Positions 8,987 through 55,000 of a DNA stretch of 64,000 bases are shown piece by piece; position 1 is the first letter of the stretch, and each line of letters opens with the position of its first letter. Below the pieces are notes generated by a model. The model did no database searches and had not been told where the DNA came from. It worked only from the letters and a program-made list of their open reading frames with translations. Source of the DNA: Branchiostoma lanceolatum (Eukaryota; Chordata; Leptocardii; Amphioxiformes; Branchiostomatidae); assembly GCF_035083965.1 (NCBI RefSeq), contig NC_089722.1, forward strand, positions 26,620,642 to 26,684,641, given 5' to 3'. Position numbers and translations under genes: made by a program.

Positions 8987-9122
8987 GTATTGTGTTGTCT
9001 TATTGTGTTATTTGTAGTTTTGCAAACTTCTCTTTTCAAACTTGGCCATCAACACATTGTCGACATGTTGTGGTTGTACATTGTGGTAGGAAACTTGTTA
9101 CCTTCAAGCTGCCAATGCATGT

Positions 9123-9231
9123 TAGCCTGGGTGCCATCCTATTTCTACCGGGGCTCCTACACTCGCTACCCTAAAGAGTTTAGGGTAGCGAATGTAGGAG
9201 CCCCGGTAGAAATAGGATGGCACCCAGGCTA
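9123..9231. mobile_element. Palindromic TAGCCTGGGT foldback MITE (copy 1)
   Basis: Near-perfect 52-bp inverted repeats around a 4-bp loop. Termini are TAGCCTGGGTGCCATCC and complement, flanked by a 9-bp direct repeat AATGCATGT (9114-9122, 9232-9240). It lies in the intron of KCTD copy C. Four more copies occur in this window. Confidence 0.85.
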
Positions 9232-9478
9232 AATGCATGTGTACGCCAGTAATCAATCTGCTCCCCAACTGGATCGCTGTTTCAAACGAAGTACAACAAG
9301 GCAACTTTGCAGTTTGACTATTTAAAGACTCGCATTCATGTGTTCAGACCAAAGTCTACTGTGACAATCATGTGATTATATGGCAGTTCAAAGTCCACTG
9401 CGCCTACCACGCTTCGTGACTTACTAAGTTCTATGTACTTCCATATTACAGATTTGTGCAAACTAAATATCGGTGAAG

Positions 9479-28700: not shown

Positions 28701-29613
28701 TGGCTTCAGGAGGGTCGAGTCCGGCGCAGCAGGTACTGAGGATCTGGGAGAGTTTAACTGCTGTGGCCCAGCCACCGTGTATGGTGGAGAAGTCCTGCTT
28801 CAGTACCAGGACCAGAACCTATAAACAAATAAACATCACAGTCAGAGGGAAATTAGTAGATATTGATTTATATTGTTCGAGCCAGATTTAAGCAAAATAT
28901 TACCCTACAGTACCATCCTCTGTAGTAACCACTGGCTCAATGCTTGTCGCTTGTTATCAAGCTACTTGTACAAGCATTGAGCCAACAGTCACTATGGAGG
29001 ATGGTACTCAGGCTAGCAATTATATCACAGACAAATGTAATGTTAGTACTTTACCTGCAATAAATCGTAGGTCCAGATGTCTAGTCGGATCTTGCGTGCG
29101 TTCGGACTCCCAGCTGGGGCCATATCCAGGATGTCCCGCAACTCCAGCAGTAATACTGGCACCTGCAAGGGAGCAGCTCATATCATTACTGGAATGTAGT
29201 CTTGTGTGTTACTGTACTGTACTTATGTGTGCATCTATTGTGTTTGTTTCTGAGCGCGCCATCATTGTGGGACTCGCAGAGCAGTATGGGTAAGGGGGTG
29301 ATGTCGGACATCTCTGATTTCCTTGTTGCGATAACCTTTACAGTGATCATGAGAAGCAGTACTAGTGGTAAACCCAGAGGGTGAAGCATATGCATGATAT
29401 GAGGCAACAAATATGACAAAAAATTTGACCTGATCATCTGATGTGAATAAATCTTTTAATCTTTATTCGTTTAAATCAAGATGACAGAAATACACATAAT
29501 ATCATACAATATTAAATAAGAAGCTTTACCTTTTTGTCCGGTGAATCAGCAACTTCTGCCGCGAGTTTGAGGATCCTGCCGGGATCATAGTCTCCCAAGA
29601 TTTCCGCCGCCAT
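25704..29613 (-). CDS. iqcb1: IQ calmodulin-binding motif-containing protein 1 (NPHP5)
   Basis: Six coding exons on the minus strand: 29613-29530, 29162-29055, 28818-27781, 27387-27098, about 26542-26441, 25854-25704; about 590 aa (human protein about 598). N-terminus MAAEILGDYDPGRILKLAAE, then VPVLLLELRDIL, resembles the vertebrate start. IQ motifs: KIQAMYRGYRMRTQLKK (about 301-317), IKIQKIWRGHNSRKKF (about 394-409), ALIQRQVRLWLERRRR after exon 4 starts; a coiled, Arg/Gln-rich stretch lies between. The C-terminus has WYQKLGDEF as in vertebrates. Family knowledge: binds calmodulin and CEP290 at the ciliary transition zone/centrosome; required for cilium assembly. Head to head with hdac6. A LINE (29625-31317) lies 11 bp upstream of the ATG. 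The exon 5 acceptor is ambiguous by 3 nt. Confidence 0.93.
28901..29015. mobile_element. TAGCCTGGGT foldback MITE (copy 2) in iqcb1 intron 2
   Basis: Inverted arms (ACCATCCTC...GGCTCAATGCTTGT and complement) around a short loop; right end GGATGGTACTCAGGCTA; the left end has decayed to TACCCTACAGTACC. Same family as 9123-9231. Confidence 0.7.
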
Positions 29614-29624
29614 CGTCGAGTTTT

Positions 29625-31317
29625 GGCCTGGAAATTGATCCGCGAGCTGTCAGGCAAGAAATCCGGAGTCATATTCATCCAGGGTGAGGATAGACTCAAT
29701 ACTTGGAAAAACCATTTCTCCAAGTTGCTCTCTGCCGAAAACCCGCTGTCCAACTCAACCGGAGTGTCAATTTCCCCAGTGTTCAACATGAACAACAACA
29801 TCAGTTGCAACCCTTTTTCACAAAATGAAGTAGACATTGCCCTTAAGCAGATGAAACCAGGGAAGGCTCCTGGGCTTGATGGCCTACCTTTGGAAGTATG
29901 GAAACTCCCCAAGACCAGTGAACGTCTCACATTTTTCTGTAATCAGACCCTAGCCGGTCACAGACCTCCAGAGTGGGGTCGTGCAGGTATTGTACCTGTT
30001 CCAAAGAAAGGAAACTTGACACTTCCTGACAACTATAGAGGAATTTCCCTCACCCAAGTGGCTGCAAAGGTCTACAACCGCCTTATACTGAATAGACTAA
30101 GACCCTTCATCGATAAACTACTTCGTCCAAACCAAAATGGATTCCGACCTTCCCGTTCAACATCAGGACAAATCCTGGCTCTCCGTAGGATTGTGGAAGA
30201 AGTCCAGAACCACCAGAAAGAAGCAGTTCTCATATTCATTGATTTCAAAAAAGCTTTTGATTCTATTAATCGTACTACTATGTTTGAAATTCTGTTAGCA
30301 TATGGCATACCAACCTCAATAGTTAATGCAATCAAAATCATGTATGACAACACATCTGCCACAGTTCTCACCCCAGAGGGGGAAACTGACTTCTTCAAGA
30401 TTGACACAGGGGTCTTACAGGGCGATCCCCTCGCACCTTTCCTTTTCATAATCGTTCTGGATTATGCACTCCGCAAGGCCATCAACGCCGATGATGGCCT
30501 TACGCTACAAAGGAGACGGAGTTCCAGGCACCCAGCAGTGGTCATTTCAGACTTGGACTTCGCAGACGATATTGGTCTACTCGAGGACACTATCCAAGCT
30601 GCACAAGACCTCCTATATAGGGTGGAATGTGCCACTCAGGAAATTGGCCTCTATCTCAATTCCTCAAAAACCAAAGTGATGCACATAAATCCAAGTGACC
30701 ACCCTCAGGCCTTACTAGCCAAAGATGGGTCCACTATTGAACGGGTTAGTGACTTTAAGTACTTAGGCAGCTATAGTAACTCTGTGTATGATGTCAATGT
30801 TCGTATTGGCCAAGCCTGGGGTGCATGCCATGCCCTAACAAAGGTATGGAAAGCCCCCATTCAAAACACCACAAAGCAGAAAGTATTTAAAGCATGTGTA
30901 GAGGCTATTTTGATTTACGGTTCAGACTCATGGACACTAACTAAGTCTCTGTCCAAGAAACTGGATGGTAACTACACCCGTCTGCTTCGTTATGCTCTGA
31001 ATGTACCCTGGCAGAGTCGCATAGGAAACAAAAAACTGTACAATGGACTTCCCCCGATCTCTAGAACAATTCAGAAAAGAAGACTGGCCCTTGCTGGCCA
31101 TGTAGCACGTCATGAGGAGATGGCTGCCAAAGTTCTCCTCTGGGAACCTGATGCAAAGAGAAAAAGGGGACGACCGAACCTGACACTTAAGAAAGTCTTG
31201 GAGGAGGAGGTTGGGTTAAAGGACTACAACCTGCTAGCCGCCATGCTTAATAGAAATGCATGGTTAGACATTGTGAATGGCACCTCGTATGAGGACGACC
31301 TGAACTGAACTGAACTG
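29625..31317 (+). mobile_element. LINE with open RT frame and perfect 13-bp TSD, inserted at the iqcb1 start
   Basis: Perfect direct repeats ATCGTCGAGTTTT at 29612-29624 and 31318-31330 flank the element. It ends in a short (CTGAA)n tail. The insert is 5'-truncated: it begins inside the ORF. Its open reading frame and perfect TSD suggest a young insertion. The duplicated target overlaps the last bases of the iqcb1 start codon on the other strand; the ATG itself is preserved. Confidence 0.92.
29626..31308 (+). CDS. LINE reverse transcriptase, 5'-truncated but uninterrupted
   Basis: About 560 codons open from the element's left end; there is no native start, the first codon being inside the truncated ORF2. 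RT motifs: PDNYRGISLTQVAAKVYNRL, QNGFRPSRST, FIDFKKAFDSI, GVLQGDPLAPFLFIIVLDY, catalytic FADD (LDFADDIGLL), then KYLGSY. The C-terminus has GHVARHEEMAAKVLLWEP and RGRPNLTLKKVL. The motif style resembles RTE/Proto2-like elements; clade not resolved. No endonuclease domain is left, so it cannot be autonomous. Oriented antisense to iqcb1. Confidence 0.88.
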   Translation, partial: AWKLIRELSGKKSGVIFIQGEDRLNTWKNHFSKLLSAENPLSNSTGVSISPVFNMNNNISCNPFSQNEVDIALKQMKPGKAPGLDGLPLEVWKLPKTSERLTFFCNQTLAGHRPPEWGRAGIVPVPKKGNLTLPDNYRGISLTQVAAKVYNRLILNRLRPFIDKLLRPNQNGFRPSRSTSGQILALRRIVEEVQNHQKEAVLIFIDFKKAFDSINRTTMFEILLAYGIPTSIVNAIKIMYDNTSATVLTPEGETDFFKIDTGVLQGDPLAPFLFIIVLDYALRKAINADDGLTLQRRRSSRHPAVVISDLDFADDIGLLEDTIQAAQDLLYRVECATQEIGLYLNSSKTKVMHINPSDHPQALLAKDGSTIERVSDFKYLGSYSNSVYDVNVRIGQAWGACHALTKVWKAPIQNTTKQKVFKACVEAILIYGSDSWTLTKSLSKKLDGNYTRLLRYALNVPWQSRIGNKKLYNGLPPISRTIQKRRLALAGHVARHEEMAAKVLLWEPDAKRKRGRPNLTLKKVLEEEVGLKDYNLLAAMLNRNAWLDIVNGTSYEDDLN

Positions 31318-31904: not shown

Positions 31905-32547
31905 GTAACTAATATGTCATTTTTCTCGGCTTTTCTGCATTGCTTGGTCTTCTCTTGGGATATTTGATCTCCAGAGCGTGTTATAGACTAGTCTAATGGT
32001 TGATTTGTGTGCATTGTTTTGGAAAAGAGGGGTGGATCACGGATGGGCGTGGTCATTCATTCATGGACTTGGCCACTTGGGCAAAGTTTACGGAACAGTT
32101 TTGTTACCTAAACAACATGAGTATGCTCACAGTCACGCACATTGAAATATCGTGCACAATGAATGCTAGTGCCATACCATGGGTACATCGCTGAAAAATT
32201 AAGACAAGATAATTTTTATGTTTTACTTGTCTTATCACCAAGTTTGAACCAAGAAATTTCACACTAGTATTATATAACGTTACACATGAGTGCCTGAGAA
32301 TGTGTGTATGTGTGTGTGTGTGTGTGACAGTATGTGCACTTTACAAAGTATATATACCTACGTGAGCATACATGTATCTGCATATAGGTGCATTAGAGCA
32401 AGGAGGTTTTGTATAGAAAACCTCCTTGATTATAGAGTTAACTGTAACATAACTATGTATATTACAATATTTCAGATATTTCAGTCACTGCACCCTAGTG
32501 TCATTGGAATGTGGTGAAATAACGGTTAGCTGCAAATACCAAGCAGC
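31905..32547 (+). other. hdac6: hdac6 5' UTR intron and leader
   Basis: Likely intron ending at an acceptor TATTTCAG near 32475, then a leader of about 70 nt to the ATG at 32548. Holds a (TG)n run at about 32300 and a 12-bp-stem hairpin CAAGGAGGTTTT/AAAACCTCCTTG at 32399-32428. Confidence 0.5.
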
Positions 32548-35500
32548 ATGGAAGGGGCTGTGCAACCACTGCCAGATAGTGTGCAACCCATAGAAGGGGC
32601 TGTACAACCTCCATCAAATAGTCCGCAACCTCAGATACCACCCAAAGTTGAAGAAATATCATCAAGAGATCACAGCGACAATCCCTCCTCCGATGTGCTT
32701 TTCCCTGACAGAACAGACCCAGCTATGACAAATCTTAATCAACCTACAGTAGACACTCCAGAACTGGACAGCACTTCTCAGCGAGATATTGCAGCGATTT
32801 CCACAAGTGAAACTGCTGGCGTGCAACTTGTCTCAAAGGGAGATGACAATCGAGAAGGTACAACAGTAAGCATGAAGAATGCAGACCAAATCACTTTGCC
32901 AGCATCAGAGAATCAACCAATCACAGAAGGTTCTGACATGACAACAGAAGCAAGCGATATTTCTTGGTCTGAAAACATTCCCCGCCATCCCACAAGTCCG
33001 CCTGCGGCAGAAAGTTCGAGTATCGGTGATGTCATCACGCCAAACCGGAACAAAAATGACGACTCACAAGCGGACAACAATAAAGAGCAGCGTAAGGGAA
33101 CAGGATCAGGCAAGAAAAAAGGAAGAGGTTCAAAAAAGAAGAACGTCACCCCCACGGGGGTGGGGAGCGGGAACTCTCAATCCCTTCAAGAAGCAAAGAA
33201 GAAGGGAAGAAAAGCGAGGAAGGCTGAGTTTGACCTCCCAGATTTGAGTGGACTGAGCCTGGAGGAGAGGGTTGTACCAAAAGGGACGGGGGTGGTGTTT
33301 GATGAGAGAATGGCAGATTATCACTGTCTGTGGGAAGACCTGAGCGACTGTAAGGCGGAGCGACCAGAGAGGTTCACTGAGACGTTGAAGTTACTGCGAC
33401 AGAAAGGTCTTGTGGACAGGTAAGAAACAACTTATTATCATGCTGTGCTTATCTATGTTTTTTTTACATTTATTCATCTTTTTCACATGTATCTGTATTG
33501 TAGAGCTGGTATAATCACCCTTCCTTGTGATTACAAACCAGCATGTAAAAGCCATATAAGTGCTAGGAACTGTACATTGTGGCAAGGATTGTTTTTGACA
33601 GTCAAACATTTTGATATATTGGCACATTTCTTGATGTAATCGATGGGATTTTTGCTGCTGCTATTTTGCAATTAAAAACCTGTACTAGTATCTTTCCATG
33701 AAGTAAATTAAAAACAATGACACAAAGATTCTGAAGACTTCTAATCTACAGATGCTTTGACATCTTCCGCTGTCCTTCAGATGTGTTGGTATCCCTTCCC
33801 GTCCCGCCAGTGAAGATGAGGTCCTCAGCATCCACTCTGAGGATCTCCTAGGGAAGCTGGAGAGCAGTGTTACCATGGTGACAGACCAGCTAAGACAGCT
33901 CTCAGGTATCCACAGTCTATCCCTGTAAAACCCTGAGGGAACCATCAAGATATGTCATGTTTTCTCTTCAGATCCTTGATTAAGTTTTGAGAAGGAAGTT
34001 CTTGACAGTTTCGTCAGGCCTTAGATATCATTTTAAAGGGCAATAACAAACTTTCCTATGATTAAGGAGACACAGTGCTAACCATAAGAAGCAAAAGACA
34101 TATGATCAGGGGAAATTGTGATCACAGCATATGGGGTGTCTCAGTAAAGGGTAACAGATTAAAGCTTTCCAATGGTATAAAATACAATATTGACAAAGTA
34201 GCAATGGAGATATGATCCCCAAACTTAAGTTTCCTTATCATATAATATTATTAGTAACTTTTTGGGTAAGTTTTTGATGAGTAAAGTTATAACAGTCATG
34301 TTTGCTCTCTTGCAGAGACTTTCGAAGACATTGCCATCCACCCAAAATCTTTTGAATGTGCTCGTCTGTCTGCTGGTTGTACCCTCCAAGTTATGGACCA
34401 AGTCCTCACCGGGAAGGTACGCAACGGAATGGCCGTGGTACGTCCCCCGGGTCATCACGCCGACAGCAATCAATCCTGCGGCTACTGCCTCTTCAACAAC
34501 GTCGCCATCGCTGCCAAACAAGCGTTGACGAAGTATGGCTTGGAAAGGGTTCTGATTGTCGACTGGGATGTCCACTTCGGGAACGGAACCCAGGACCTTT
34601 TTTACGACGATCCGCGGGTTCTCTTCTTCTCTGTGCACAGATACGAGCACATGGAGTACTGGCCACACATGGAGAGAGCCAACTACAACTTTGTGGGGAG
34701 GGGGGCTGGAAAAGGCTATAACGTGAATGTGCCATGGAATAAGATAGGGCTGGGAGATCCCGACTATATTGCCGCTTTTCAACAGGTATGTGTTAACCTT
34801 TGGAACATTTTCTGTTGCTGCATTGAGCTGCTTAACTGTGCTTAGATTTAGCATCTTCCAGATGAATCAGGATTCATACTGAATTTGATCAATAACAAAA
34901 TACACATGATGAGTATTTGCATATGAAATTGACCATTCTTAAGACATGATGCTTACATATGCTTCAATACACTTGCATATTCAGGGGTTTTTCTAGAAAA
35001 ATTAAACATTAGGGAGCACACACATGCAAGGGAGTGAATTCTATGTATTTATGGAAGAATCAATTGCTGAGTGAAGGTAGTATGCTCATATTAAGCTAAA
35101 ATCTGAATTTGACAAGAGGGTGCTGGGCTGAAACAAGAGGGTGCAGCGCCCCTAGCCTCTTTCCTGATTTAAATGAACCCCTGATATTTATCCCTGTAGG
35201 TTCTTATGCCCATGGCGTATGAATTTGCGCCCCAGCTAGTCTTGGTTTCCGCTGGATTTGACTCAGCGGTGGGAGACCGTATGGGAGAGATGGTCACCTC
35301 TCCTGTCTGCTATGCTCATTTACTTCACATGCTTACAGGTAGTTTTAACCTAAATAACAACAAAAATACTGAAACAGCCACAAAAATCACGCTAGCATTT
35401 GATGTCTGTTGGGGAAAGACTGCATGTTATACAGTTCTGCATTGAAAACTGAAAAGTATTCATTTTTATAAGTTTTATTCTAATTCTCATTCATTTCTGA

Positions 35501-38500
35501 AATAAGTTTTATCTAAGAAAAAAAAGAAAACTTAATGTTCAGCAAAAAACTACAGAGCAGAATTGTTGGGTTTTGATTTCTCTAGCCAGATGTTAGTGTG
35601 GAATTTTTGTGGCTTGTTTCAGGCATTCAAATTGTCTTCACTTCTTCATGAATGTTGCTTGTGTATGTATGTCTAGGTTCTTATGCCCATGGCGTATGAG
35701 TTCAACCCTCAGTTGGTTCTGGTATCAGCTGGTTTTGACTCAGCTGCCGGGGATCCAAAAGGAGAAATGAGCACCACCCCAGCAGCTTATGCACACCTCC
35801 TACACATGCTGAAAGGTACTGCAGCATGGTTCGGCTCAGAATGATGTTGAGTTGTGTACATGTGCCTATAAAATTGTTAAGTACAGAACTGAATGCCAAG
35901 AGTGCCTGTACCAGTACGTGTACCTATAAAATTGTTTAGTACAGAACTGAATGCCAAGAGTGCCTGTACCTGTACGTGAACCTATAAGATTGTTTAGTGC
36001 AGAACTGAATGCCAAGAGTGCCTGTACCTGTACGTGAACCTATAAAATTGTTTAGGTACTGTACATGTACAGGTACAGACTTGATGTCAAGAGTGCCTGT
36101 ACCTGAACAAAACACTAGTACATATACAATTTTTTAAAGACTAGATATAGTAAATCCTGTCTCAAAGATGACAATTTTAGCAATACTAGTACTTGAGGAT
36201 ATCTAGATCTGGTGGAATTACGAGAGTTGCTGTTCTATGGCAGTGTTATACATCAATATATCTGCTATAGTTAAATAAAAACTGAGACCAAGTGTGCTGG
36301 TTGATGCAAAATTGAATTCCATCTATCGATACATAATCTATTTCTTTAACTTCATTCTGCAAATAATATCTATATATTCAAAAATATTGTTATTGTTTTT
36401 ATTGCAGGTCTTGCTGAGGGAAAAGTCTGTGCCGTCATGGAGGGAGGGTACAACATACAGACGTTGTCAGAGTGTGTAGCCGTGTGTGTGGAAACTCTGT
36501 TGGGAGACCCCTGTCCGCCCCTCCCCCCACTACAGCCTGATCCCAGCTCCGTGGAGACTTTACTCGATGTCCTCGGAGTTCACCAGAATAGTTGGAAATG
36601 CTTCCAGTACCAGGTAATAATCTATATTCTCAAAGAAATTTTTCCATGACTTTTGAAGTAGGATCAGATACAAAAATTTCTCCATATTTTTATTTTGAAT
36701 TTTCTTTGTCCCAAGGGGTGTTAAACCCTTAAGACCAAATTGAATTCAAGATATCGATGACTGATATCACTGTTATAGGTTTCAAAAGACGCTCTGACCA
36801 GTGAGGAAGATCAGCATCCACAACAAAAGTCTGAAGACATGTCCCACTGGAGGTCTGTTGGAAGGGGTATGTTTACACCAAGATATTCTACCATATAAGT
36901 TATTTGCATACTCAAGACATTCTAAAAGGATCTGTAATCGATTGTTTTCAAATATGAACTTGTTGATTTTGTAGCTGATTGCTATATACATTAGCTTGAA
37001 GCTACATCCCTTCAATACATGATTGTCACCCTGTCCCTATCTGGTTTAGGCACCTGTACATCAGGTCGAGAGGTGGGGCTGGTACATGATGAGGCCATGA
37101 CGAACCACGTTAACATCTGGTTCCCCGGCCACCCTGAACAACCATACAGGATACGCAGGATCATGCAGGCACTGGACAGGCACAGGCTACAAGACAGGTC
37201 AGAAAATAATTTACATATACCTACTTTGCATGCTCAGGATACTTCATATCCTCACTGGTCCTAATCTTCTCCCTATCCTGTTCAAACTTTTGTCATGCAT
37301 AGTGAATGTGAATGGTTTTCATTGCTATGAGCTGTTGACATAGATGTTGGATAGGATTGCATTTCAGTACCACAGACAGATGTTCCTTTTCAGTACCATG
37401 GACAGGTGCTCCACTTAAGTACCATTGGCAGGTGTTCTATTTCAGTATTATGGGAAGGTGTTCCATTCAAGTACCATGGACATGTGTTCCATTTCAGTGC
37501 CATGGACATGTGTTCCATTTTAGTACAATGGAAAGATGTTCCATTTCAGTACCATGGACAGTGTTCCATTTCAGTACCATGAACATGTGTTCCATTTTAG
37601 TACTGTACCATAGAAAGATGTTCCATTTCAGTACCATGGACAGTTCCATTTCAGTGCCATGGACACGTGTTCCATTTCAGTACCATGGGCAGGTGTTCCA
37701 TCTCAGTACCATGGACAGGGGTTCCAGTTCAGTTCCATGGTCAGATGTTCCATTTCAGTACCATGGACAGGGGTTTCATTTCAGTACCATGGACGGGTAT
37801 TCCCTTTCAGTACGATGGACAGGTGCTCCATTTCAGTACCATGGACAGTGTTTCCATTTCAGTACCATGGACAGTGTTCCATTTCAGTACCATGGACATG
37901 TGTTCCATTTTAGTACTGTACCATAGAAAGGTGTTCCATTTCAGTACCATGGGCAGTGTTCCATTTCAGTGCCATGGACACGTGTTCCATTTCAGTACGA
38001 TGGACAGGTGCTCCATTTCAGTACCATGGACAGTGTTTCCATTTCAGTGCCATGGCCAGGTGTTCCATTTCAGTACCATGGACAGGGGTTCTATTTCCAT
38101 ACCATGGACAGGGGTTCCATTTCAGTATCATGGACAGGTGCTCCATTTCAGTACCATGGCCAGATGTCCCATTTCAGTACCATGAACAGATGTTCTAAAC
38201 CTCACATTTTCCCACCAGGTGTGTTAAGCTAGAGTCCAGACTGGCCACAGAAGAAGAGCTGCTGTACCTGCACACGTCTGAACACCTGCAGCTGATGCAG
38301 GAGACAGTCGAGATGACACCACGACAGCTCAACAAAACACAGGCAGACTTCAACTCCATCTTCCTATGTAACGACACATACAAGGTGAGGAGGGATGAGG
38401 AAGTTAACATTTAATTATGTGTGTAGAATGATACACAGAAAAACAGTATGTAACTAGCTGATGAGCTATAGCAAGTGAAATGTTACATCAAAATTCAGTT

Positions 38501-41500
38501 TACTTCCTTGCATTTTAAACTTTGTCTTTCTTTATTTAATCAGTATAAAAAAAGGACTGTTCTTGTGATAAGGGAATACTCATGCTTTGTGTAAAAATAG
38601 GAATGAGGAAATGGACATAGGGTTTGAAGTTCACTAATACACAAATTATGTAGTAAAGTTACTTCTTTGACATCTTTACCACTAGAATGTTGCTGTTATT
38701 TGTCCAGTGCTAATGACTAGAACTGTACCCTGGTTTAGATTTCCAACAATTTGATATGGCTGTGAACAAGAATATTTTCCATTTTTCCCTTTATTTCCAG
38801 AGTGCCTGTTTAGCGGCTGGGTGTTCCATGAATGCCGTGGAGGCCGTGGTCACTGGGAGCGTACGCAGTGCCGTCGCTGTTGTCCGTCCCCCGGGTCATC
38901 ACGCGGAGGTGGACAAACCGTGCGGCTTTTGTATCTTCAACAGCGCGGCGCTGGCAGCACGCTACGCACAGAAGAGGCTGGGGGTGGGGAGGGTACTGAT
39001 TCTGGACTGGGATATTCACCATGGTAACGGTACACAACACATGTTTGTGGAGGACCCAACAGTGCTCTACATATCCATACACAGGTAACAACAGCACTCC
39101 CTTGACTATCTTTTTGGCAATGCCTCAGGAGAGGCATTTAGCAGCATGCTACTAGTACTATGAAGAATTTTAGAAAATTGCACCAATGCATTTCTGTGAA
39201 AATTGGTTTTGTTTTAGGACAGCATAACCGAAGAAAATTTGAATGGATCTGTATAAGATTTGGTACTGATGTGTGAGCAACACCAAGGACAAGTTTACAT
39301 TTGGGTTCCCTGGCAGCTTTCTTTCGTAATGCGGTTGGACCTCCAGTTTTCATATAGAGCTGCGGATGTGCTTTTCTTCGAAGCTTTGTTAGATGAATCA
39401 CATCTCAAGTCTTTGAAAATTTCATCCTTTTGCTGTAGTATTAACAAAAAAGTATTTCATAAAAAGAGTATTTCATTTGTTTTACTATATTTTTAATTCT
39501 AATTTCTTGTTTAAAGAAATAATGTTAATTGTACATGTGATTAATACTCTGTTGCATGTCAGTATTGTGTGATTGAACAATAAAGTATTTTTTTTCCCAT
39601 CCAGGTATGACAATGGATCATTTTTCCCTGGGAGTCCTGATGCTGACTGTACGGTGGTGGGGAGTGGACCGGGGGAGGGGTTTACTGTCAACGTGCCGTG
39701 GAGTAAGGGAGGCATGGGGGACGCTGAGTACATGGCTGCGTTTCAACAGGTCAGGGGACAGACACATGGGTTATGTTCTGGTTACTGCATCATACAAAGC
39801 ATTTTTACTCACTTTGCATGTCAATGAAGCAGGCAGGTGCTAAGTTACCATGTTGGTGTCCCTGATTGTATTTCAAGGGATTGTACATGTAGCTCAAGCA
39901 TACACAACATTTTTGTGTGTCATCTGTAAGTTTAAACTATCCTTCTGGTATTGTCTACTTGGAGCTGGAGACATTTAATAGAAGTTGTTTGACAGAGTCA
40001 GAAGATCTTTAAATGTCTGAAAACTCTTGAGCTATGATTCGCTGAAATGCTGCAATACAGTACTGACACCAACATGGTAGCAGACACAGCAATAATGTCA
40101 TGTGCAAACACTTGGTAGTAACTTAATCATTCTGATACCTTTTTATGAAGAAATATGGTTCATATTGTTCTATTTTAAAGTCATTTTCCACGGACTGAGA
40201 GTAACTCCCTTTCCTTGCCTGCAAACAAACATAAATTTGCAAGATCTTCAGATCAAAATGTCTAGAAACTTATTGATATCAGATTCATAGTACAAATGTA
40301 TCTGTTTTCTGACTCCACGTCCAGGTTGTGATGCCCATAGCGTACCAGTACTCCCCCGAGCTGGTTATCGTATCAGCGGGATTTGACGCGGCCAGGGGGG
40401 ACCCCCTGGGACACTGCGACGTTACCCCCTCGGGCTACGCCCACATGACGCACATGCTGAGCAGCCTGGCAGGGGGGCGGGTCGTACTACTGCTGGAGGG
40501 GGGGTACAACCTGTCGTCCATCTCTGAGTCCATGTCGGAATGTACCAAAATCCTCCTGGGAGACCCCTGTCCTGCCTTTGATCATGAGTACTCCCCTCCT
40601 TGTGAAGAGTAAGTATATCTCTATAACCAGTTCTCTACAGTCTCAACACCCCCTTTATTTACTTCGAAAAATATTCCAAACTTTTCTGTCTACATTATGT
40701 TTTCAGCTGTTGACTTGTGAACTACGGACAAAATGTATTTGTTTACAGTACATTTTAACTTAATATCCTTCTCTTTCTCTATCTATTGCAGTCTTTAAAA
40801 AACTTTTATAGGATTCTAGGATTTTTAGTTATTTTATGGATTCTAGGATTGTTTAAGTAACTTGGAATGCATAAAAGTTCTACAATTATAGTCTATGATA
40901 TAGTGTATGATAAGTTAACATTCACAATTGTCTTACAGGGCAGTGGAGTCCATATTGAGCACCCTGCATGTTCACCAGAAGTACTGGAGAAGTCTGGCTT
41001 TCCAAGGTAAAATCAACTCTCTCTGTCTTCAATGCCCTGATGTAGATGGCCTCCTTTCTATTCCTGCCTTATACTCTATTTTAAGTATGTTTGATTGGAA
41101 AACGTCTACATATGTCTACATATGATTCAATGTTTGAATCCTCTGAAACTTTTGGAAGTGTATGAGGGACATGTATGGAACATTTCTATTTTACACAGTT
41201 GATGTAGCGACCAAAGATGACTGCAGTGATGAGGGAAGCAACGAAACCAGTAACACCACAAGCAAAGCAATAGAACCAGACAGGTATATAATTGGAATAA
41301 CACTATTATCATAATGATAACATGATAACACCATAAGTCATTAGGTCTCTGTTATCTGTTTAATTCTATGATTTTTATTTTCTACCAAAATTCAGAATGT
41401 CACTTTTCGTCATCCATTGTAAAATAATAGTTGGGCAACTGTATATTCCCCATGAGCTGTCTGCATACAGTAAGCACTTCTGGTATTCATTTCATCTGTG

Positions 41501-42012
41501 CATTCTTTTGTGATCTTTTGTAAATAATTCTTTGATACCTGGCAGTATTAGGATAATGATTTATTGCACTTTGACCTGTATTTCAGACCAGCCTCAACAG
41601 ACCTGAATCTTCAGATGGAACAACTCAGCATTACTGGGGAAGAAAAGGACAATCAGAACACAGCGGAGGGTATAGAAGGGAAGACATCAGGGGAAGAGTC
41701 TGAAGACAATGCACCAGCGCCTCCTATCCAAAATCATCTGCAAGTGCAGCCCCCAGGTCTGTAGAGCACTGTTTGAATGATACAGTCAATGTATCATCAT
41801 TCCATGCACCCTTATCTCACTATCAAAAAAATACAAACAAATGTTTTCTATCTGAGTTGTCATGTATTGATATTCAAGGTAGTAAATAAACTAGAATGTG
41901 TTATACAAATACCAAATAGCAATAAGTTTGTTATTATAGCTTCTTTAAGTCAGCAAAACAATCTTTGACATAATGTGTTTCATCTACAGACAGCATGGCT
42001 GGTCAAGATTAA
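32548..42012 (+). CDS. hdac6: Histone deacetylase 6-like, tandem deacetylase domains, no ZnF-UBP seen
   Basis: Fifteen coding exons in one splice form: 32548-33419, 33781-33905, 34316-34785, 35200-35338 OR 35677-35815, 36408-36613, 36779-36866, 37050-37197, 38219-38384, 38801-39084, 39605-39749, 40325-40608, 40939-41006, 41199-41283, 41587-41756, 41990-42012; all phases match, 1090 aa. The N-terminus (1-245) is low-complexity with EGAVQP repeats and basic [19 protein letters not shown] (possible NLS). CD1 about 246-600: GHH 378-380, zinc ligands D417/H419/D510, catalytic Y550. CD2 about 634-975: GHH 770-772, D809/H811/D902, Y942. Both domains keep catalytic residues. Family role: cytoplasmic alpha-tubulin/HSP90 deacetylase. 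The C-terminus (977-1090) is acidic and Ser/Thr-rich; no ubiquitin-binding zinc finger was found to the end or in the next 3 kb. AATAAA at 42191. Confidence 0.93.
35200..35338 (+). other. hdac6: hdac6 alternative exon 5a
   Basis: 139 nt, acceptor CCCTGTAG, donor TTACAG|GTAG. Encodes [20 protein letters not shown] then D510 (zinc ligand) and [14 protein letters not shown]. Same length and phase (0 in, 1 out) as exon 5b; using both would shift frame and meet TGA eight codons into 5b. Confidence 0.85.
35677..35815 (+). other. hdac6: hdac6 alternative exon 5b
   Basis: 139 nt, acceptor GTCTAG, donor GAAAG|GTACT. Encodes [20 protein letters not shown] then the zinc-ligand Asp and [14 protein letters not shown], closer to the vertebrate HDAC6 consensus than 5a. 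Confidence 0.85.
35866..36110. repeat. 58-bp tandem repeat in the hdac6 intron, about four copies
   Basis: Unit includes CCTATAAAATTGTTTAGTAC and GAATGCCAAGAGTGCCTGTA; copies 2-4 are nearly identical. It starts 50 bp after exon 5b. Confidence 0.85.
37352..38196. repeat. 26-bp minisatellite in the hdac6 intron (about 32 copies)
   Basis: Variants of a unit containing AGTACCATGGACAGGTGTTC and a CATTTC tail, ending 23 bp before exon 9 (38219). The period is 26 bp, so every frame is open over long stretches; these frames are artefacts. Higher-order repetition is visible (for example 37580-37680 resembles 37880-37980). Confidence 0.92.
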
Positions 42013-43530
42013 CTAGCATCACATTTGCCTCCAGTAAGAGATTCATCTACTTGAGAAGCTGCTGATTTGCAAGCAACAGATTCAAAGATACTAGTACCGC
42101 TCCTAATAAGGCATCTCCTCAGACATCTGGACAGTGCAAATCTAGAGCTAGGTTTACACATGTAGGTTTCAATAATACCTCATTATATGGAATAAATTTG
42201 TTTGAAATTATGTATTGTTATGAATGAATATGATGAATGCTTCAATGTACCCAAATCACAATTGTAGCCATGTATCAAATAGATATGCAATACAATTTAT
42301 ATGTAATACTCTCTATACTCGTTTATGGCTATGTACTGATGTCATTTTATGTATTGATTTTTGAAACTTGTAAGTTGGAAGATCCATCATTTATCTGTGT
42401 ATATAACCCGTGCAAATGATTTTGAAATTAAAATCTATCATGATGGGTTGAAGCAAATGTTTGACTGCCACTGTACCATCATTCCGTATATGAAACAAGA
42501 CAAAACTTTTGCGATAGAACGGTATGAATGAGATAACCGTATCTTACACCGATCTTACTGCAATCACTAACAATTGTCAATGATAATATGTGTATATAGA
42601 CAGACAGAATCTCTATACCCAAATTGTGTGTATGACATTGTCACCACCAGGATTTGTGGACTTTATGCACTTAAACTGTGCTACCTCAGGTTAAGAGGTA
42701 TGTTTGCTATGAGGACTGGTTAAGCCTTAGCTTCTCATATTCAAAAAATTATGATGATTAAGCATATAGCTGGTAAAGCTTCTCTGCATTATTTTATATT
42801 ATACAAGGCCATATGACAACTATCCTTCCAATCTCCAGCATTTGTGTGACCATTCTTAGCATTCATTCACTTGCTTTTGCTTGCTTAACTTGTGAAGTAC
42901 TGTTATACATCTATAATAATTTAGATCAATTTGCTGTTTAGTACCATGTGATTTTCATGAACAAAGCCAAATTTTGAGAATTGTGCTGTGAGAAATGCTT
43001 CAAAATGTAACATTGCAATGACAACAATATAAGTTATATATTGCATATTTGTTATTTGATTACCAGTAATTTGGATGTTTGTATACTTGTACTCTAGATT
43101 TTTTTCTTTGAAAGTTAATAGTTATGGTTTCCTTGATTGCTGTCATGTGTAACACAACAATCTACATTTACCTGTTTTTGCTTAATCAATATTTTTTATA
43201 AACATTTTGATGGTCTTATTTGGTTGTTAATTTACCTTCGATGACATACAGAAGATAGACCACAATGTCATCTTCATACATGATTAATGTATTCTGTCGT
43301 GTACTTTGACTTTTAATTTTAATGTTGTTTGTATCATACTAATATATGTGTGCATGCAATATTCCAAGTAAAATCTCATAGTTGAAGTGCTGTATCAACA
43401 TTTCTTCATATTTAAGTCAAATCTGTTAAAACTACAGATTACTAGAAGTATATAGAGGCTTGCTTTTTTTAGGGGGGGGGGGCTGGAAGTTCCTGATTTA
43501 AGACCTTATACTATTACCTTATACCGTAGT
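42013..43530. other. hdac6 3' UTR and AT-rich intergenic DNA
   Basis: AATAAA at 42191 gives a plausible 3' end. No ZnF-UBP-coding exon or other gene recognised; G-run (9 Gs) at about 43473. Confidence 0.5.
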
Positions 43531-44830
43531 TATTATCTTCGCCGAGAAGATTATGTTTTCGGTTACGCCTGCTGTTGGGTGGGTCAGTATGTATGTCAAG
43601 AGCATAACTCGAGAAACCTTTGATGGATCTTCATATGATTTTTGGTAAGTTTGTAGTGGTTGTGCAAAGGAAGGTCAAGTTTAAAAATCGTTCACCTTAC
43701 GTTTTCCAACAGTACTGCAGCGGACTTTGAATTTTTCGTGTTTGTATGTAGGCAAAAAAAGTGACTGAAATGTTGATGGATCTTCATGATTTTTGATAGT
43801 TGAGAAGCGGTTGTGGGAATGGAGGTCAAGTTCGAAAATGGTTTACCTGGCGCTTTCCTACGCGTTGTGCAGCGAGCTGTGTATGTTTCTGTGTTTGTAT
43901 GTCACCAAGATAACTTGAGAAGTGGTTCACGGTTCTGTATGATATTTAATGGATGGGTAGGGTTTGCAAAAAGGAAGGTCAAGTTCGATAATGGGCCTTC
44001 TAGCGGGTACCTAAGGTACTGCAGCAGAGCTTCAAAGTTTGAGGTCAAATTTTCTGGAGGCGCCAGGTACATTATTTTTTTTATAGTAGATCGGTCTTGG
44101 GGCAGGGAACAAGTGGTGTAAGTTTGGGCCTCTTGGCGGCTTGTTTTGAGCTGCAATGGGCCTCGGCCAAATGAGTGTATCGTTGTATACTTTCAAGGTT
44201 AAATAGAGGTTGAGAAAAAAATTTGGATGAGGATAACTCATGCAGGGTTTGGTGTATTTTCATTGCTTTTGGTCTGTAGGTACCTTAGGTGATGATTAAC
44301 ATAATGAAATATATAGTATGCAAATCAGGACTTCATTTACATGATCAAAGAGAATGAGGTATAATTCCATTGAAAGCTGTTACTCGACACCTGGAGGATT
44401 GCCTGGCTTGGGATTAAGGTCACCCAGCTGTGTGCCAGCTGTGCGCCCTTCATTTGGTAATAACTCAAGAAGGGGCCAACAGATCATCATGATTTTTGGT
44501 TTGTTAGTAGCTTAAGTTATAATTTGATATAGATAAATGGTAATTATGCGTATAGGAGCCAATATGCATAATTGAGGAGGAATTAGGGTCACATTCACAT
44601 AATTGAGAAAATGTTGGGCCACATTTGCATAGTTGAGAATAGCTGTCTTTGCTAACTTAAGATAAGACTTTCATACTTTGGACAACTTGTGTTATTTTAG
44701 TGGACAAGATCATCGATCGATATCATACATTTGTAAATAGAAATTAGGATTTTATCATCAATGAAAAACCTCATCAGTTGTGAAGGTCAATATCATTTGG
44801 CGAAGGTATGAGGTCATGGAACTCTAGTTA
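43531..44830. repeat. Dispersed AT-rich interspersed repeat (copy 4)
   Basis: Begins TTATCTTCGCCGAGAAG and ends TTTGGCGAAGGTATGAGG then TCATGGAACTCTAGT; shares inner phrases (TATGCAAATCAGG, CTTGTGTTATTT, CTGCAGCGGA) with 15530-16290 and 19950-21830. Terminal ACCTTCGC-type inverted motifs; no transposase. Confidence 0.6.
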
Positions 44831-45712
44831 CTGATTCAAATTATCATTGATGATTTGAGCTCAGTATGTAATTTTTTTATAAGAACACAATGAGATTTCT
44901 TATACCTTGCCCATCTAAACTGAATCTTACTGATATTTGCCTTTTAACTGTTCTGTAAAGATAAGTTATTTTACAGTCTTTCATGAAATAGACAAGAACT
45001 TCTTATTGCCTTACCAATCACGTTTCTGTCCTTAAGTACTACTGTTAAAAAGTGAAATACAGAAGAGCCGTATATTTGAATACAAAATTAGTTTATTTGC
45101 ACAAAAACTAGTATAGTTGAAGATACGTATAGTATAGTAGACAATTTTTTCAACACTGCTAGAGAGAACAGTCTTCAAATATGGTTTTACATTTTCTGAT
45201 GGGGAACAACAAAACTCGAGGTTTCCTCCTTCCTGTGCATTTTGCATGTTTTGACCTCAAGAAGTACACATATATTACATGGGGGGACTAATACATACTA
45301 TGCAAAAACCATTTTAAAGACCAGTATCCAAAAAATCTTTAAGTTAGTACATGATCAAAATCATGAGAACAAAAACACATTTCAATGTAAAATATGATTA
45401 ACTTTAGATCACAAGTACATCACTGCCTTGGTATTGCAAATAAAATACAATGTATTATTTCCCATTCTGCAACAAGTTGAAATTCATGTTTCTTGTACCA
45501 TGCATCTAAACCTTTGCATACATACTGTAACAACTGATGAGGACTGCATCATGTACATGTATCTTTACCTGATAAAATAATGAGATCTCAAACAAAAGGT
45601 ACATACATTAATTTTGTTTTTCTTAGTCATCTTTCCACATAGCTCTCTTGGTCCTTATATGTAATGGACATTTTGTATAGACACCCTACCCTTATGGCAC
45701 TGATACTCAATT

Positions 45713-47205
45713 CTATAAAGCAACAAATGTTTGATAATTGACAAACATAATGGCAAAGTTGACCGCGTATGTTGCGATGCATACCACACATGTGTCGTTC
45801 AGAATGAAGTAGAGAACATACGCTAACCACAGACACCCTAGGCACGATAGTACGGATGTATAGAACAGGAGATGAACACACAGATATCCACCAACATGTC
45901 CTGCAGAGGGAGGATGGAAAGCAAAGTTAGAGACATTCTACTTTCTAGTTCAACATGTATTCAAGTCATGTTGTCCATTCTGTCTAATGTAGTACCTATA
46001 GTGGCACATAGGTCAGCAAGTTTCCTTGCTGTTTCAGTAGCAGGGTATTTTTTGTAGGGAGGAGTTGCTACTAGCTGAGCCCTTCCACTCTAAAGTGCTT
46101 GAGGCACCTCCTCGAACATGTCCTTCCGAAAGACAGTGCAGCCCCAACCGAGATGTCCTGACCCCGGAACTTGAACTGGGGTCTCCAAGTTCAACTTCAA
46201 CTTGATTTACCCCCAGATAACCCCGCGAGGGGCAAAGTAGGGAGGGGGGGGAGGTCCCAGGCTAAGGTGGGCAGGCCTCCAGCCTGGCGCGGTATGACTC
46301 AACGGTGGGAGCCGTAACAACCGCACCAGGCAGGGCGTTCCACTCGGGGATTGTGCGGGGGAAGTTACCAACTAATTAGAAACAGGAGCTTAACTGTAAG
46401 GCTGCTACCAGTTGAGCCATAGCTTAACTTGTACTTTTAATAGATTGCTTCACAATAGTCACTATTAAACCTCCCCACACTGATGGCTGGATGTCTGGCG
46501 AAGTATCATCAAGATTTAGTAAGGTCATCATCGTTGTACATTATGATTTTTAACTTACCGAGGACAAGTTGCAGCACGTAGAAGATGATTCCAAGTACGC
46601 TGTTGGGCTGAAGCAGGATGCTGTCCTCCCCCACAATGTATTGGAGTAGTCCAAACCCTTTGCCATAGCTGGAATGTGTTCAAAGAGAAATATAACTTAA
46701 TTTTGAATGTCCTTCCGTTATTTGTGCATGACATGTCATGTGTGAAGTCAAGCTTTAATGTTAGTTCATACATCAAATTCACAAGCTACCAATACCTCCC
46801 ATGCACCCAGTGTATAAACATAACCTACTACTTGTGGGCGGGGCCGTAAATTGCCGTTTTCGGGGTTAAATATGCCATAACCATATACTCAATCATACAT
46901 CTAAAAAAACGTCGCCTTCCTGTCCACTGAGACTACCACCCAAAATCTTCGAGCTCTATCATAGTCAAAGCAGTTTCCATGTGGTTCTGAATGTGTCTAT
47001 CGCCGCCCTCCCCCGTATGACTCCCGTATAATCAAACTTACTAAGAACTGAAGGCCTTGGTACAGCTCACACGGTCACTGAAGTCACAGAACGCCACGTA
47101 ACTCTTGTTCTTCTCCTTTTCTAACTCCACATGTAAAGCGTAGATAGACAGGATGATTCCTAAAACACACAGGCTAGCGTGGAGGGATACAAACTCGACG
47201 ATCAT
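45713..47205 (-). CDS. vkorc1: Vitamin K epoxide reductase complex subunit 1
   Basis: Three exons on the minus strand: 47205-47042, 46668-46559, 45900-45713, total 153 aa (human 163). Start chosen at the ATG in GACACCATGA, which puts TM1 ([19 protein letters not shown]) right after the start as in vertebrates; an upstream in-frame ATG at 47394 would add 63 unrelated residues. Loop cysteines C40 and C48 ([11 protein letters not shown]), the FGLL...[14 protein letters not shown] segment, and the redox CVVC motif in the last helices are all present. Function by family: ER-membrane reduction of vitamin K epoxide/quinone for gamma-carboxylation. Tail to tail with hdac6. The protein ends [10 protein letters not shown] without a basic ER signal. 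A candidate AATAAA (minus) lies at about 45092-45097. Confidence 0.93.
46060..46440 (-). mobile_element. tRNA-derived SINE interrupted by a truncated LINE tail
   Basis: On the minus strand: a box A-like TGGCTCAACTGGTAGCAGC near 46410-46428, a box B-like AGTTCAAGTTCC near 46170, then a core CTGTCTTTCGGAAGGACATG typical of metazoan SINEs. Between the boxes sits about 170 bp encoding [19 protein letters not shown], the C-terminal motif of a LINE ORF, ending in AAGTTG repeats (about 46195-46370). Nested insertion in vkorc1 intron 2; borders approximate. Confidence 0.6.
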
Positions 47206-47897
47206 GGTGTCGTTGAGCTTGAGTGTAACGGAGCTGAGAACTGAAGTCAGGAACGCTGAAATCTGGAAGCAACCCGGAAGTGCTAGCCGATTCCACTCGC
47301 CCACAGGGGTGTAATACATTCTTAGTAGAAAGTGAATTTGATCAGAAATGTGACGTAAGATATATTGAGTTGAGTTTTTCATAATGTATCTCATTCAATG
47401 TTTAAGGGCTGAAAGCTAGTAAACAGTATCATCAGATTTAAGATAAAAATTATACCAATGGTCCAGTGGCATAGTCTATGCCCATATACGGTGTTGTCTG
47501 CTAATTCTAACTCACGTACCGGTTTTGTAGCTTTGCGCTACCAATATATATTCTTTTGCTAGCAAAGGTAAAAGATTTTAGGAATATCCTTATTGCAGAT
47601 TGATAAATCAAAAGAAAGGCACGGCGACTTGTTTATAGCAGGGTTAGGTACCTAACTACGTACCTTTTGAATTATGTGAAAATCATAATATCATGACACC
47701 TAATAATAATGACCTATTTGATTGACAAATGATACAAATTATGGAGTGATACAAATCATGGGGAAAAATCGTGTGTCGATTGTGATGGATTTTTATTGAT
47801 CAGTTTATCTATCATTATCATATGCATCACCTGACACTACCATTCTATGGTCATTAATCAATGTGAATTAGTTATCATGTAGTCATTGCCTTGTCAC
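47206..47897. other. upstream region of vkorc1
   Basis: Includes the presumed 5' UTR/promoter of vkorc1 (minus); no clear TATA box or other gene. Confidence 0.4.
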
Positions 47898-52000: not shown

Positions 52001-55000
52001 TCCATTTCACTAGCGCCTGCGGCAAGTCAGTTCAAGTTCACCCCCGAAGAGCAGGTCCTAGCTGACTCCATGGCATACTACTACGGCAACTTTGCTCACA
52101 CCGGCAACCCCAACACCCCTGGCACTCAACAGACCAGCCTTCCTGCTGACCAAGTCCTGGCCTGGCCTTCCTTTGGATCTGCCCAGAACTACACCAACCT
52201 GGTCTTTGATGTTCCGAAGAACAGCGTTGGTCAAGGCTACCTTCGAGATAAGTGCGACTTTTGGGATGAGGAGAACCTCTACCCTTAGTTTCTTCCAGCT
52301 ACGCACAGCAAAAATGTAACTAGGAACATTACTTGTAAAAACATGCCTGAATGAATTATCACCAATTTGCCTCTTTTTTCGAAATAGCCTTGAAAGACTT
52401 GACAAGGACAATATTTTGAGTTATACCTGCAAGTTGACATTTTCCGCTTATATGATACACTGCAATCCATTGTCAAAACATAAAAGAGACATTTCACATT
52501 TCCGAGGGCGCATGTGAAGTCGCACTTCATTGTGGCCTATGGTCAAAGTTTTTGTACAAACCATTCTTAGCTTTGTCTTGTTTGTCCACAAGCCAGGGCC
52601 TAAACCCACAATGTGGAGTTGACAGCCACTTTTGCGTAGCTCTTGCTGTGGTATTACAATTATTAGCTATTGTTTACAACTGAAATCCCGGTATTCAAAT
52701 CAAATTACAATACAATACAATACAATACAATACAATACAATACAATACAAGGCAAAATAAATATCCAAGATGACAGGCTGGTCTCTCAGTGTTTGTACGG
52801 TATTTTGTCAATAAGCTTGTTGAAAAGATTTCATCTATGCATATACCTCTCGTACCCTAAGTCTAGCGACCGGTGTCACAGCCCCCCTCACCGGGACAAA
52901 ATAACTAGCAATTAACCAAAGAACTAACACTAGTAAATGAATAACAGTAACAGCTAACAATCAACACTGATAAGCGATGAACCAAATAGATGACGATAAG
53001 ACCAGCGATGTTTTAAAAGTTTTGGAATGAAAGAACCGCTACTAGTTGCATAACAACGTCCATGCAGAATTATCAAACAGCGAAATAAATCAAATAAAAC
53101 TTGAACAGAGAAATTTGCGATCATTATACATTATTTCAACTGTGTTTAAATGGTGTATCGTGTCTACGTACATGTATACTATTCGCAAATTAAAAGACGT
53201 CTCCTCTTATGTATTGAATTGATAATGTGACGCGATTGTTAATGAATGTGAATATGTTTTAATGTTGTCTATCATAGATTTTAGCTTATTTGTAAACTTT
53301 TGATATTGAATTAGCTTACCGAGATTTAGTCAGAACATCATAATTCAGACTCAGTATGTCTGTTCAATGAAGATTGAATTGAATTATATGTGACTGCTGG
53401 ACGATGAGAAACCCAAGTGTGGGCATGCACCAATGACTGACCTGTAGTGGCCGGAACAAGCAGTCCACGCGGCGGTCGAACACCTTGACCAGGTCGAACC
53501 CCGTGGGCTGGACAGGTGCCCCGGGGCAGGTGCGCACTCCCTCCTCCACCGTGCAGTTCCCGGCCACCTGCGTGGTCTCCTCCCTGTCGTCTTGCTTACG
53601 GAAGGTTGTACAGTTGTAGGTGTCAGCCTGCCATATACACTTCGTGGACTGGACCTGCCACGAGAAGTCGCCTTATTAACGTACACTAACATAAATTCCA
53701 CCAGGGTACATAATTCCGCCACCTGAAAAGATACGTCCGAACAGCTAGATCTCCAACGCAACGTCCGCCAGTATAATGCACTACTGTATATCTAAAGTGT
53801 GCATACCTGGGGGTGCTGCACCGAGAAATCTCTCAAACCCACTGTTTTTCAAAGCGGCGGATTTATGTAACCCGCTGGATTAATGTTAATGGAGGCTATA
53901 TGTCATGGCTGTCAACTAGGAAAGCTTTTACTTAAGTTCCTTTACCTAAATAATGAAGCTATCGATGTACCGCAGACTTTGACCCCTAGAGACAAACAGC
54001 CATGTTCTAGCAGATGTCGGGGTGAAATTCCTAACGTTTTCGTACAGGCCGGCTTTTCAGGCGGTCCACTGTTACCCCACCCCATATCTGCTTGGAGATA
54101 CGCCATATCCAGCTAGGAATGATGGTTCTTGCACAGCCCATTCAGTACAACATACATAACTTTGTGATGACAGTTTTTACTCCAGTAAATAATGCTTGCC
54201 CATACTTACAGTGACGGTGGAGGTAGTATTGCCGGTACAGTTTGGTCTCATGTTGTCCCAGTCATAACTACAGCCGAACGATCCAGCGCTTGTGTGGACA
54301 AAAACACTCGCACCATCCAAGAAATCTGCGGTCAATGGGGGAAAAGTACCCTTAACGATTTATTGCAATTGATAAATGTTCTATTTTACCTGAAACAATT
54401 TAGATGCTTTCCGGGTCTATACTTTTTGATTTTGTACTTTATATTATTCTTTTCATACAATTCTGTTGTCTAAGAGTTAAAATGTAGATATTCGTAATAC
54501 TGCTTTTACTACTGTACACAGGTCAGTCTTTCTGGTGTATTTTTTTACCATATCGTCTTATAGATTACTAGAAACTAGTATAGTTCTAACAAAATATTGA
54601 TTTTCGTTGTTGAGATGTTACTTACCGTCCGTGGAATTGCGGTCCAAAGTTGGGAAACCGCCGAGTCCGGAGAGCATCTCACTCCACGTCTGGGTGAAGA
54701 GAGCTGCGAGACGACATTAATAGAAATAATCAGACAAACATACAGCCTTGCAAGATATCTATTTAGAGATACCCATGGCCAGAGCATATACTTATATCAC
54801 AAAAATGAATACACAGTTCAAACTTGGAGTACTCCATAAAAAACAGTCATACTAGCCTGGGTAACATCCTCCGAAGTTAGCACTGGCTCTCCGTGTTAAG
54901 CAAGCAAAAAGGGAAAGCCAGCGGTAACTACGGAGGATGGTACCCAGGCTACATCAATACATAGTTAAAGAAGTTTATTGCAAGTTCATGCCCGTGGGCT

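Follow-up and report, generated by a model that had tools for sequence, protein, structure and literature searches.

The stretch of DNA analysed here, referred to as the window, comprises 64,000 nucleotides of the genome of the amphioxus Branchiostoma lanceolatum (contig NC_089722.1, positions 26,620,642 to 26,684,641) and contains a gene of the HDAC6 type with two tandem deacetylase domains. One segment of its first catalytic domain (CD1) is encoded twice, by two neighbouring exons named A and B, and the residue that corresponds to the substrate gatekeeper of class IIb deacetylases is a methionine in A and a lysine in B. It is probable that the two exons are spliced in a mutually exclusive manner and that the range of substrates accepted by CD1 is thereby switched from restricted to broader or back. 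Coordinates are given as positions in the window, and features lie on the forward strand unless stated otherwise.

Anatomy of the gene and of the exon pair

The gene model extends from position 32548 to 42012, and contains 15 coding exons when one of the exons A and B is included. It encodes 1090 residues with two Hist_deacetyl domains. Pfam family PF00850 matches two stretches of the form with exon A (E 7.5e-190), and the best whole-chain matches of the gene in the PDB are HDAC6. We assign the gene to HDAC6 because it encodes two full deacetylase domains and a lysine gatekeeper, which is present with exon B and replaced by methionine with exon A. A zf-UBP finger was found neither by Pfam in the 1090-residue model nor by a loose motif scan of the three forward frames of positions 40601–46000, although there is a small chance that an exon was missed. 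The gene ends in a short tail (41587–42012) that apparently lacks the finger, and for this reason we use the name HDAC6-type. A minisatellite with a 26-bp unit (37360–38195, 32 copies, 81% matches) takes up most of the intron that lies at the start of the second catalytic domain (CD2). Many of its units contain ttccatttcag, which resembles an acceptor, and cag/gtg, which resembles a donor, so that the array looks like a string of decoy splice sites, and it is open over long stretches in several frames.

Exons A (35200–35338) and B (35677–35815) are 139 nt long each, have AG and GT borders, and are entered in phase 0 and left in phase 1. These coordinates, lengths, and phases agree with those given in an earlier note on this DNA. 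The two exons encode alternative versions of a 46-residue segment, as the note had stated, with identity at 99 of 139 nucleotides and 37 of 46 residues, and each contains the codon of the zinc-ligand aspartate of the SAGFD motif (35260–35262 in A, 35737–35739 in B). The intron between them is 338 nt long (35339–35676). Upstream, the pair is preceded by a constitutive exon of CD1 (34316–34785, donor at 34786) with the GHHA and DVH motifs, and downstream it is followed by a constitutive exon (36408–36613) with EGGYN. Exons A and B would supply the same zinc ligand and segment of the fold, and the shared exons the remaining catalytic residues, which we take to be the tandem histidines of GHHA, the zinc ligands of DVH, and the catalytic tyrosine of EGGYN. 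The upstream exon reads DWDVHFG where the aligned HDAC6 and HDAC10 chains read DVHHG, and a phenylalanine thus follows the zinc-ligand histidine. The intron on the 3' side of exon B contains a tandem array of 3.3 copies of a 58-bp unit (35865–36055).

The reading frame remains open with A alone or B alone, and the protein has 1090 residues either way. Inclusion of both exons results in a stop at codon 543 of the gene model, and skipping of both in a stop at codon 513, which bears out the earlier statement that the frame is broken without the pair. The same note had placed a TGA eight codons into the joined exons. There is an early TGA, but the junction reads GSYAHGV followed by the stop, which is the eighth codon counted with the junction codon, and only seven sense codons precede it.

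Splice sites were scored with a leave-one-out matrix built from the remaining sites of the gene, namely 13 acceptors and 13 donors. Acceptor A scores 3.8 and acceptor B 4.0; the others range from 2.2 to 10.5, with two of the 13 lower. The donors score 6.2 (A) and 3.8 (B) in comparison to a range of 3.1–11.1; three of the 13 are lower than donor A and one is lower than donor B. When a plain matrix was applied to positions 32000–42000, 6.4% of the 641 other AG dinucleotides scored at least as high as acceptor A and 5.5% as high as acceptor B, and the corresponding proportions of the 634 other GT dinucleotides were 1.6% for donor A and 10.9% for donor B. The sites had been described as good, which holds for their canonical AG and GT dinucleotides, but their scores lie towards the low end of those found in this gene. 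Weak splice sites are usual for regulated exons. Incompatibility of U2-type and U12-type introns was considered as the means of exclusion and rejected, since the donors and acceptors of both exons look by eye like ordinary U2-type sites. The pair combines tandem homologous exons, compatible phases, a frame that is open with either exon, and canonical splice sites, which are among the criteria for mutually exclusive exons. This sequence evidence supports the proposal of the earlier note that the exons form a mutually exclusive pair within CD1 of an HDAC6-type gene.

Gatekeeper residue and the rim of the substrate pocket

Codon 28 of the two exons corresponds to the gatekeeper. Exon B encodes Pro-Lys at this place (CCA AAA, 35755–35760), with the lysine that is the CD1 gatekeeper, and exon A encodes Arg-Met (CGT ATG, 35278–35283), with methionine at the gatekeeper position. 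The CD2 exon that corresponds to the pair (40325–40608), which is present in a single copy in the window and has the same 5' splice position, encodes GDPLG with leucine as the gatekeeper. In the alignment with HDAC10 chain 6ufn, which has no gaps here, codon 28 (query position 186) is paired with residue 274, and in the CD1 chains of HDAC6 its counterpart is the GDPKG lysine. Counted along the alignment, a single offset of 72 relative to HDAC6 chain 9k91 places codon 28 at K353, and the tryptophan and tyrosine from the shared exons at W284 and Y225; an offset of 37 relative to HDAC6 chain 5g0h places codon 28 at K330 and the tryptophan at W261. Because the same offsets give K353, W284, and Y225 in one chain and K330 and W261 in the other, the correspondence extends to more than one named position. 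These chains are identified by molecule name, and the species names attached to them are presumed.

According to the available excerpts of the two papers on which we rely, residue E274 is the gatekeeper of HDAC10 (PMC5454378), and human K353, which is equivalent to zebrafish K330 and to L749 of CD2, has been proposed, like K330, to restrict CD1 (PMC10157890). The gatekeeper is a lysine in HDAC6 CD1, where it dictates the specificity for C-terminal acetyl-lysine, a glutamate in HDAC10, and a leucine or methionine in every other human HDAC (PMC5454378, excerpt). The same excerpt reports that the substitution E274L reduces the polyamine activity of HDAC10 20-fold and increases its acetyllysine activity about 100-fold, which converts the enzyme to a lysine deacetylase, and describes the gatekeeper as necessary but not sufficient.

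The segments encoded by exons A and B differ in nine residues. Eight of these differences are at columns that vary among the six comparison domains, and one of the eight is the gatekeeper itself, which is K, L, or E depending on the subfamily. The ninth adjoins the gatekeeper: exon B and the six comparison domains all have a proline immediately before it, and exon A has an arginine. Seven of the nine changes are located within residues 24–37 (hypergeometric P 0.0016, for a range picked after looking). The earlier note had placed the differences in the loop after the aspartate, near the substrate pocket, and they do cluster there; the gatekeeper position within that loop was overlooked. Exon B matches the human CD1 segment at 30 of 46 residues and exon A at 26, and exon B matches the HDAC10 segment also at 30 of 46. 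The tryptophan (YWPH) and tyrosine (GYC) of the pocket rim are encoded in shared exons.

We propose that each mRNA contains one exon, A or B, and that the choice alters mainly the pocket-rim loop after the aspartate. Transcripts with both exons or neither would be degraded by nonsense-mediated decay owing to their early stops. Exon B with its Pro-Lys would produce a standard CD1 limited to C-terminal acetyl-lysine. Exon A would place Arg-Met in the loop, with a neutral gatekeeper as in other acetyl-lysine HDACs, so that the limit would be relaxed and acetyl-lysine within a chain is predicted to be accepted. The form with exon A would retain all the catalytic residues, that is the tandem histidines, the DVH and AGFD ligands, and the EGGY tyrosine. 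Since the rim tryptophan and tyrosine are shared and the gatekeeper is necessary but not sufficient, the broadening of the substrate range in the A form may be partial.

The exons may also be mutually exclusive without any effect on specificity, and differ instead in the stability of the protein, the packing of its domains, or the binding of partners, or exon A may provide a catalytically weak CD1 that leaves CD2 as the sole active domain. The gatekeeper dipeptide accounts for two of the nine differences and the other seven lie elsewhere, the proline lost in A is invariant in the six domains, and the activity of vertebrate CD1 is restricted according to the excerpt of PMC10157890, all of which fit this explanation. 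However, the two most striking changes are at and beside the residue that sets the specificity of the sister enzyme HDAC10 (PMC5454378, excerpt). The idea of a weak CD1 is also at odds with the 18 columns that are invariant in the comparison domains, of which A keeps 16 and B keeps 17, so that A does not look degenerate. We regard exon choice with unchanged specificity as unlikely.

Divergence of the exons and selection on both copies

A comparison of the two exons by tblastn gave an E value of 9e-22. In neutral simulations with the same 40 nucleotide differences, none of 20,000 runs kept 37 of the 46 residues, and the maximum was 31; 64% of the runs gained a stop and 36% stayed free of stops. 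Chance similarity of A and B is excluded because of the tblastn E value together with the outcome of the simulations. The 40 differences affect 25 of 46 third codon positions and 15 of 92 first and second positions. The nonsynonymous divergence (dN) is 0.14–0.18, and the synonymous divergence (dS) is beyond measurement by the NG86 method and 3.6–7.6 by maximum likelihood; the other two of the four dN/dS methods, LWL85 and YN00, gave no estimate owing to saturation. Among the 33 degenerate codons that specify the same residue in both exons, 19 differ. BLASTN similarity is limited to positions 35197–35341 and 35674–35818 and ends at most 3 nt outside the exons, and the introns are unalignable. 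Saturation of synonymous sites, conservation of 37 of 46 residues, and similarity that ends at the exon edges together suggest that protein-level selection has preserved both exons for a long time, and argue against an error of assembly. A recent duplication would also be expected to leave a different pattern.

Apart from A and B themselves, tblastn identified one full-length relative of the exons in the window, the CD2 exon. No third or decayed copy was detected in the window by this search, which besides A, B, and the CD2 exon returned one match of 11 residues (E 0.29). The first 23 nt of A (35200–35222) and B (35677–35699) are identical, and the CD2 exon matches 18 of the 23. All five degenerate codons in this part are unchanged, in comparison to the 19 of 33 that differ overall (P 0.008, noticed post hoc). 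A splicing enhancer, local gene conversion, and chance are possible reasons for the identity.

It is conceivable that only B is spliced in and that exon A is a pseudo-exon or a relic without use inside an intron, and the comparatively low splice-site scores and the change from proline to arginine in A agree with this. Yet exon A differs from B to synonymous saturation while it shares 37 of 46 residues, a degree of conservation that was not obtained in any of the neutral runs; it contains no stop, its AG and GT are intact, and the similarity stops at the exon edges, whereas a relic of such age would have decayed. We consider a relic to be highly improbable. There is an equally slight chance that the main role of the pair is that of a poison exon, which switches the gene off through products that contain both exons or neither. 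The stops at codons 543 and 513 are upstream of many exon junctions, which fits this role. However, a poison exon need not conserve a protein, and the pattern of divergence is that of selection at the protein level. Such a role can coexist with a switch of CD1 specificity. Finally, an assembly artefact, in which two haplotypes of one exon were set in tandem, had been named in the earlier note as a finding that would overturn its proposal, and would be favoured by the high heterozygosity of lancelet genomes, but it is contradicted by the 19 of 33 differing degenerate codons, by surrounding introns that are unalignable whereas alleles should share intron sequence, and by a window without N, and its probability is close to negligible.

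Possible enforcement of the choice, genomic setting, and known systems

The intron between A and B is predicted to fold with a z score of −3.88, and none of 100 shuffled sequences was as stable. It contains a hairpin of 33 bp with the left arm at 35369–35401 and the right arm, in which three bases are unpaired, at 35587–35622; further paired stretches are located between the arms. No second copy of the hairpin was found within the window, where there are only short matches, and the ungapped repeat finder does not list the hairpin. Two adenines at 35640 and 35648 are candidate branch sites of exon B, by motif match only. In the linear RNA, these adenines are 301–309 nt away from donor A, a distance that is reduced to 47–55 nt when the 254 nt of the hairpin are subtracted. 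A distance between donor and branch site of less than about 50–60 nt sterically blocks splicing, and the unfolded RNA exceeds this limit. We suggest, with low to moderate confidence, that the hairpin acts as a lock, which would bring donor A too near to the branch site of B for the two exons to be joined. Exclusion by a docking site and selector sequences, as in Dscam, was also considered but found no support, as neither pairing of the shared exon start with the introns nor pairing between introns was clearly stronger than in shuffled sequences.

In its full form, our proposal is that one gene produces two forms of CD1 under cell-type control, one that accepts acetyl-lysine at the C-terminus alone and one that also accepts it at internal sites, perhaps in tubulin-like targets, with the hairpin preventing the joining of A to B. 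We put forward this combination tentatively, at slightly less than even chances.

Several observations weigh against the proposed switch or its lock. The arginine that replaces proline in exon A, in an otherwise invariant column, could impair folding or activity. When CD1 is compared alone, its score with HDAC10 is similar to or slightly higher than that with HDAC6: with exon A, it reaches 322.9 bits with HDAC10 chain 6ufn versus 314.2 and 317.6 bits with two HDAC6 CD1 domains, and with exon B, 328.3 bits versus 327.0 and 321.2 bits. Of 99 other segments of 338 nt, three reach the z score of the intron (−3.86 in the control run) and four reach −3.5. Foldback repeats are frequent in the window (eight pairs), and the hairpin may be a relic of a mobile element. 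When the shared exon start (24 nt of A) was paired with each of the three introns, 131, 68, and 196 of 200 shuffles did as well, and for pairing between introns 59, 13, and 51 of 60 shuffles did so.

Four foldback elements elsewhere in the window look like members of one palindromic repeat family. In the elements at 9122–9232, 54853–54951, and 63763–63845, TAGCCTGG starts at most two bases from the left end and its complement closes the right end; the element at 28909–29008 has a GGATGGTAC-like motif in common with them. Upstream of the HDAC6-type gene, there is an open frame on the reverse strand with an IQ calmodulin-binding motif (PF00612, 27745–28818). A reverse-transcriptase domain (PF00078) is encoded between genes in an open frame that spans 587 codons (29545–31308) and probably belongs to a fairly young retroelement. 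An exon of the VKOR family is encoded on the reverse strand downstream of the gene (47041–47394).

The gene resembles human and zebrafish HDAC6 in its two tandem Hist_deacetyl domains and in the GDPKGEM sequence of exon B, which includes the lysine gatekeeper. It differs from them in the second version of the segment, with a methionine gatekeeper preceded by an arginine, and in that no zf-UBP finger was found in the gene model. As in HDAC10, where single changes switch specificity according to the excerpt of PMC5454378, the same alignment column would decide the substrate class. However, the difference in the case of HDAC10 is between genes, whereas here it would be between splice forms, and the residues are lysine and methionine rather than Glu274. 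The GDRLG loop of the class I enzymes HDAC1 and HDAC2 resembles the Gly-Asp-Arg and neutral gatekeeper of exon A, but exon A is otherwise a class IIb segment, and shared descent of the loop is not implied. In class I enzymes this arginine contacts inositol phosphate, from which we draw no conclusion for exon A.

Exons 9 and 10 of PKM are mutually exclusive exons in an enzyme. Unlike the pairs of PKM and ATE1, the exons A and B change a known specificity residue of a deacetylase. Exons 7a and 7b of ATE1 are similar to the pair described here in that one alternative exon is included per mRNA and part of an enzyme is changed; the choice between them is mediated by competing RNA structures, as stated in the excerpt of PMC11802352, whereas in the HDAC6-type gene the candidate structure is a single hairpin, located in the intron that separates A from B.

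Judged by title and in part by the opening of the abstract, the open-access papers on HDAC6 in amphioxus and on mutually exclusive exons in deacetylases or amphioxus contain no report of this pair; subscription papers and genome annotations were outside this search, so an annotated pair of transcripts may exist in databases. Within the literature searched, no mutually exclusive exons would have been proposed before to govern the specificity of a deacetylase. To our knowledge, the cellular role of HDAC6 CD1 is still unsettled. Two versions of the gatekeeper in one gene would constitute a natural experiment, in which the same enzyme occurs with and without the restricting lysine, and the use of the two forms in different tissues could be read from RNA.

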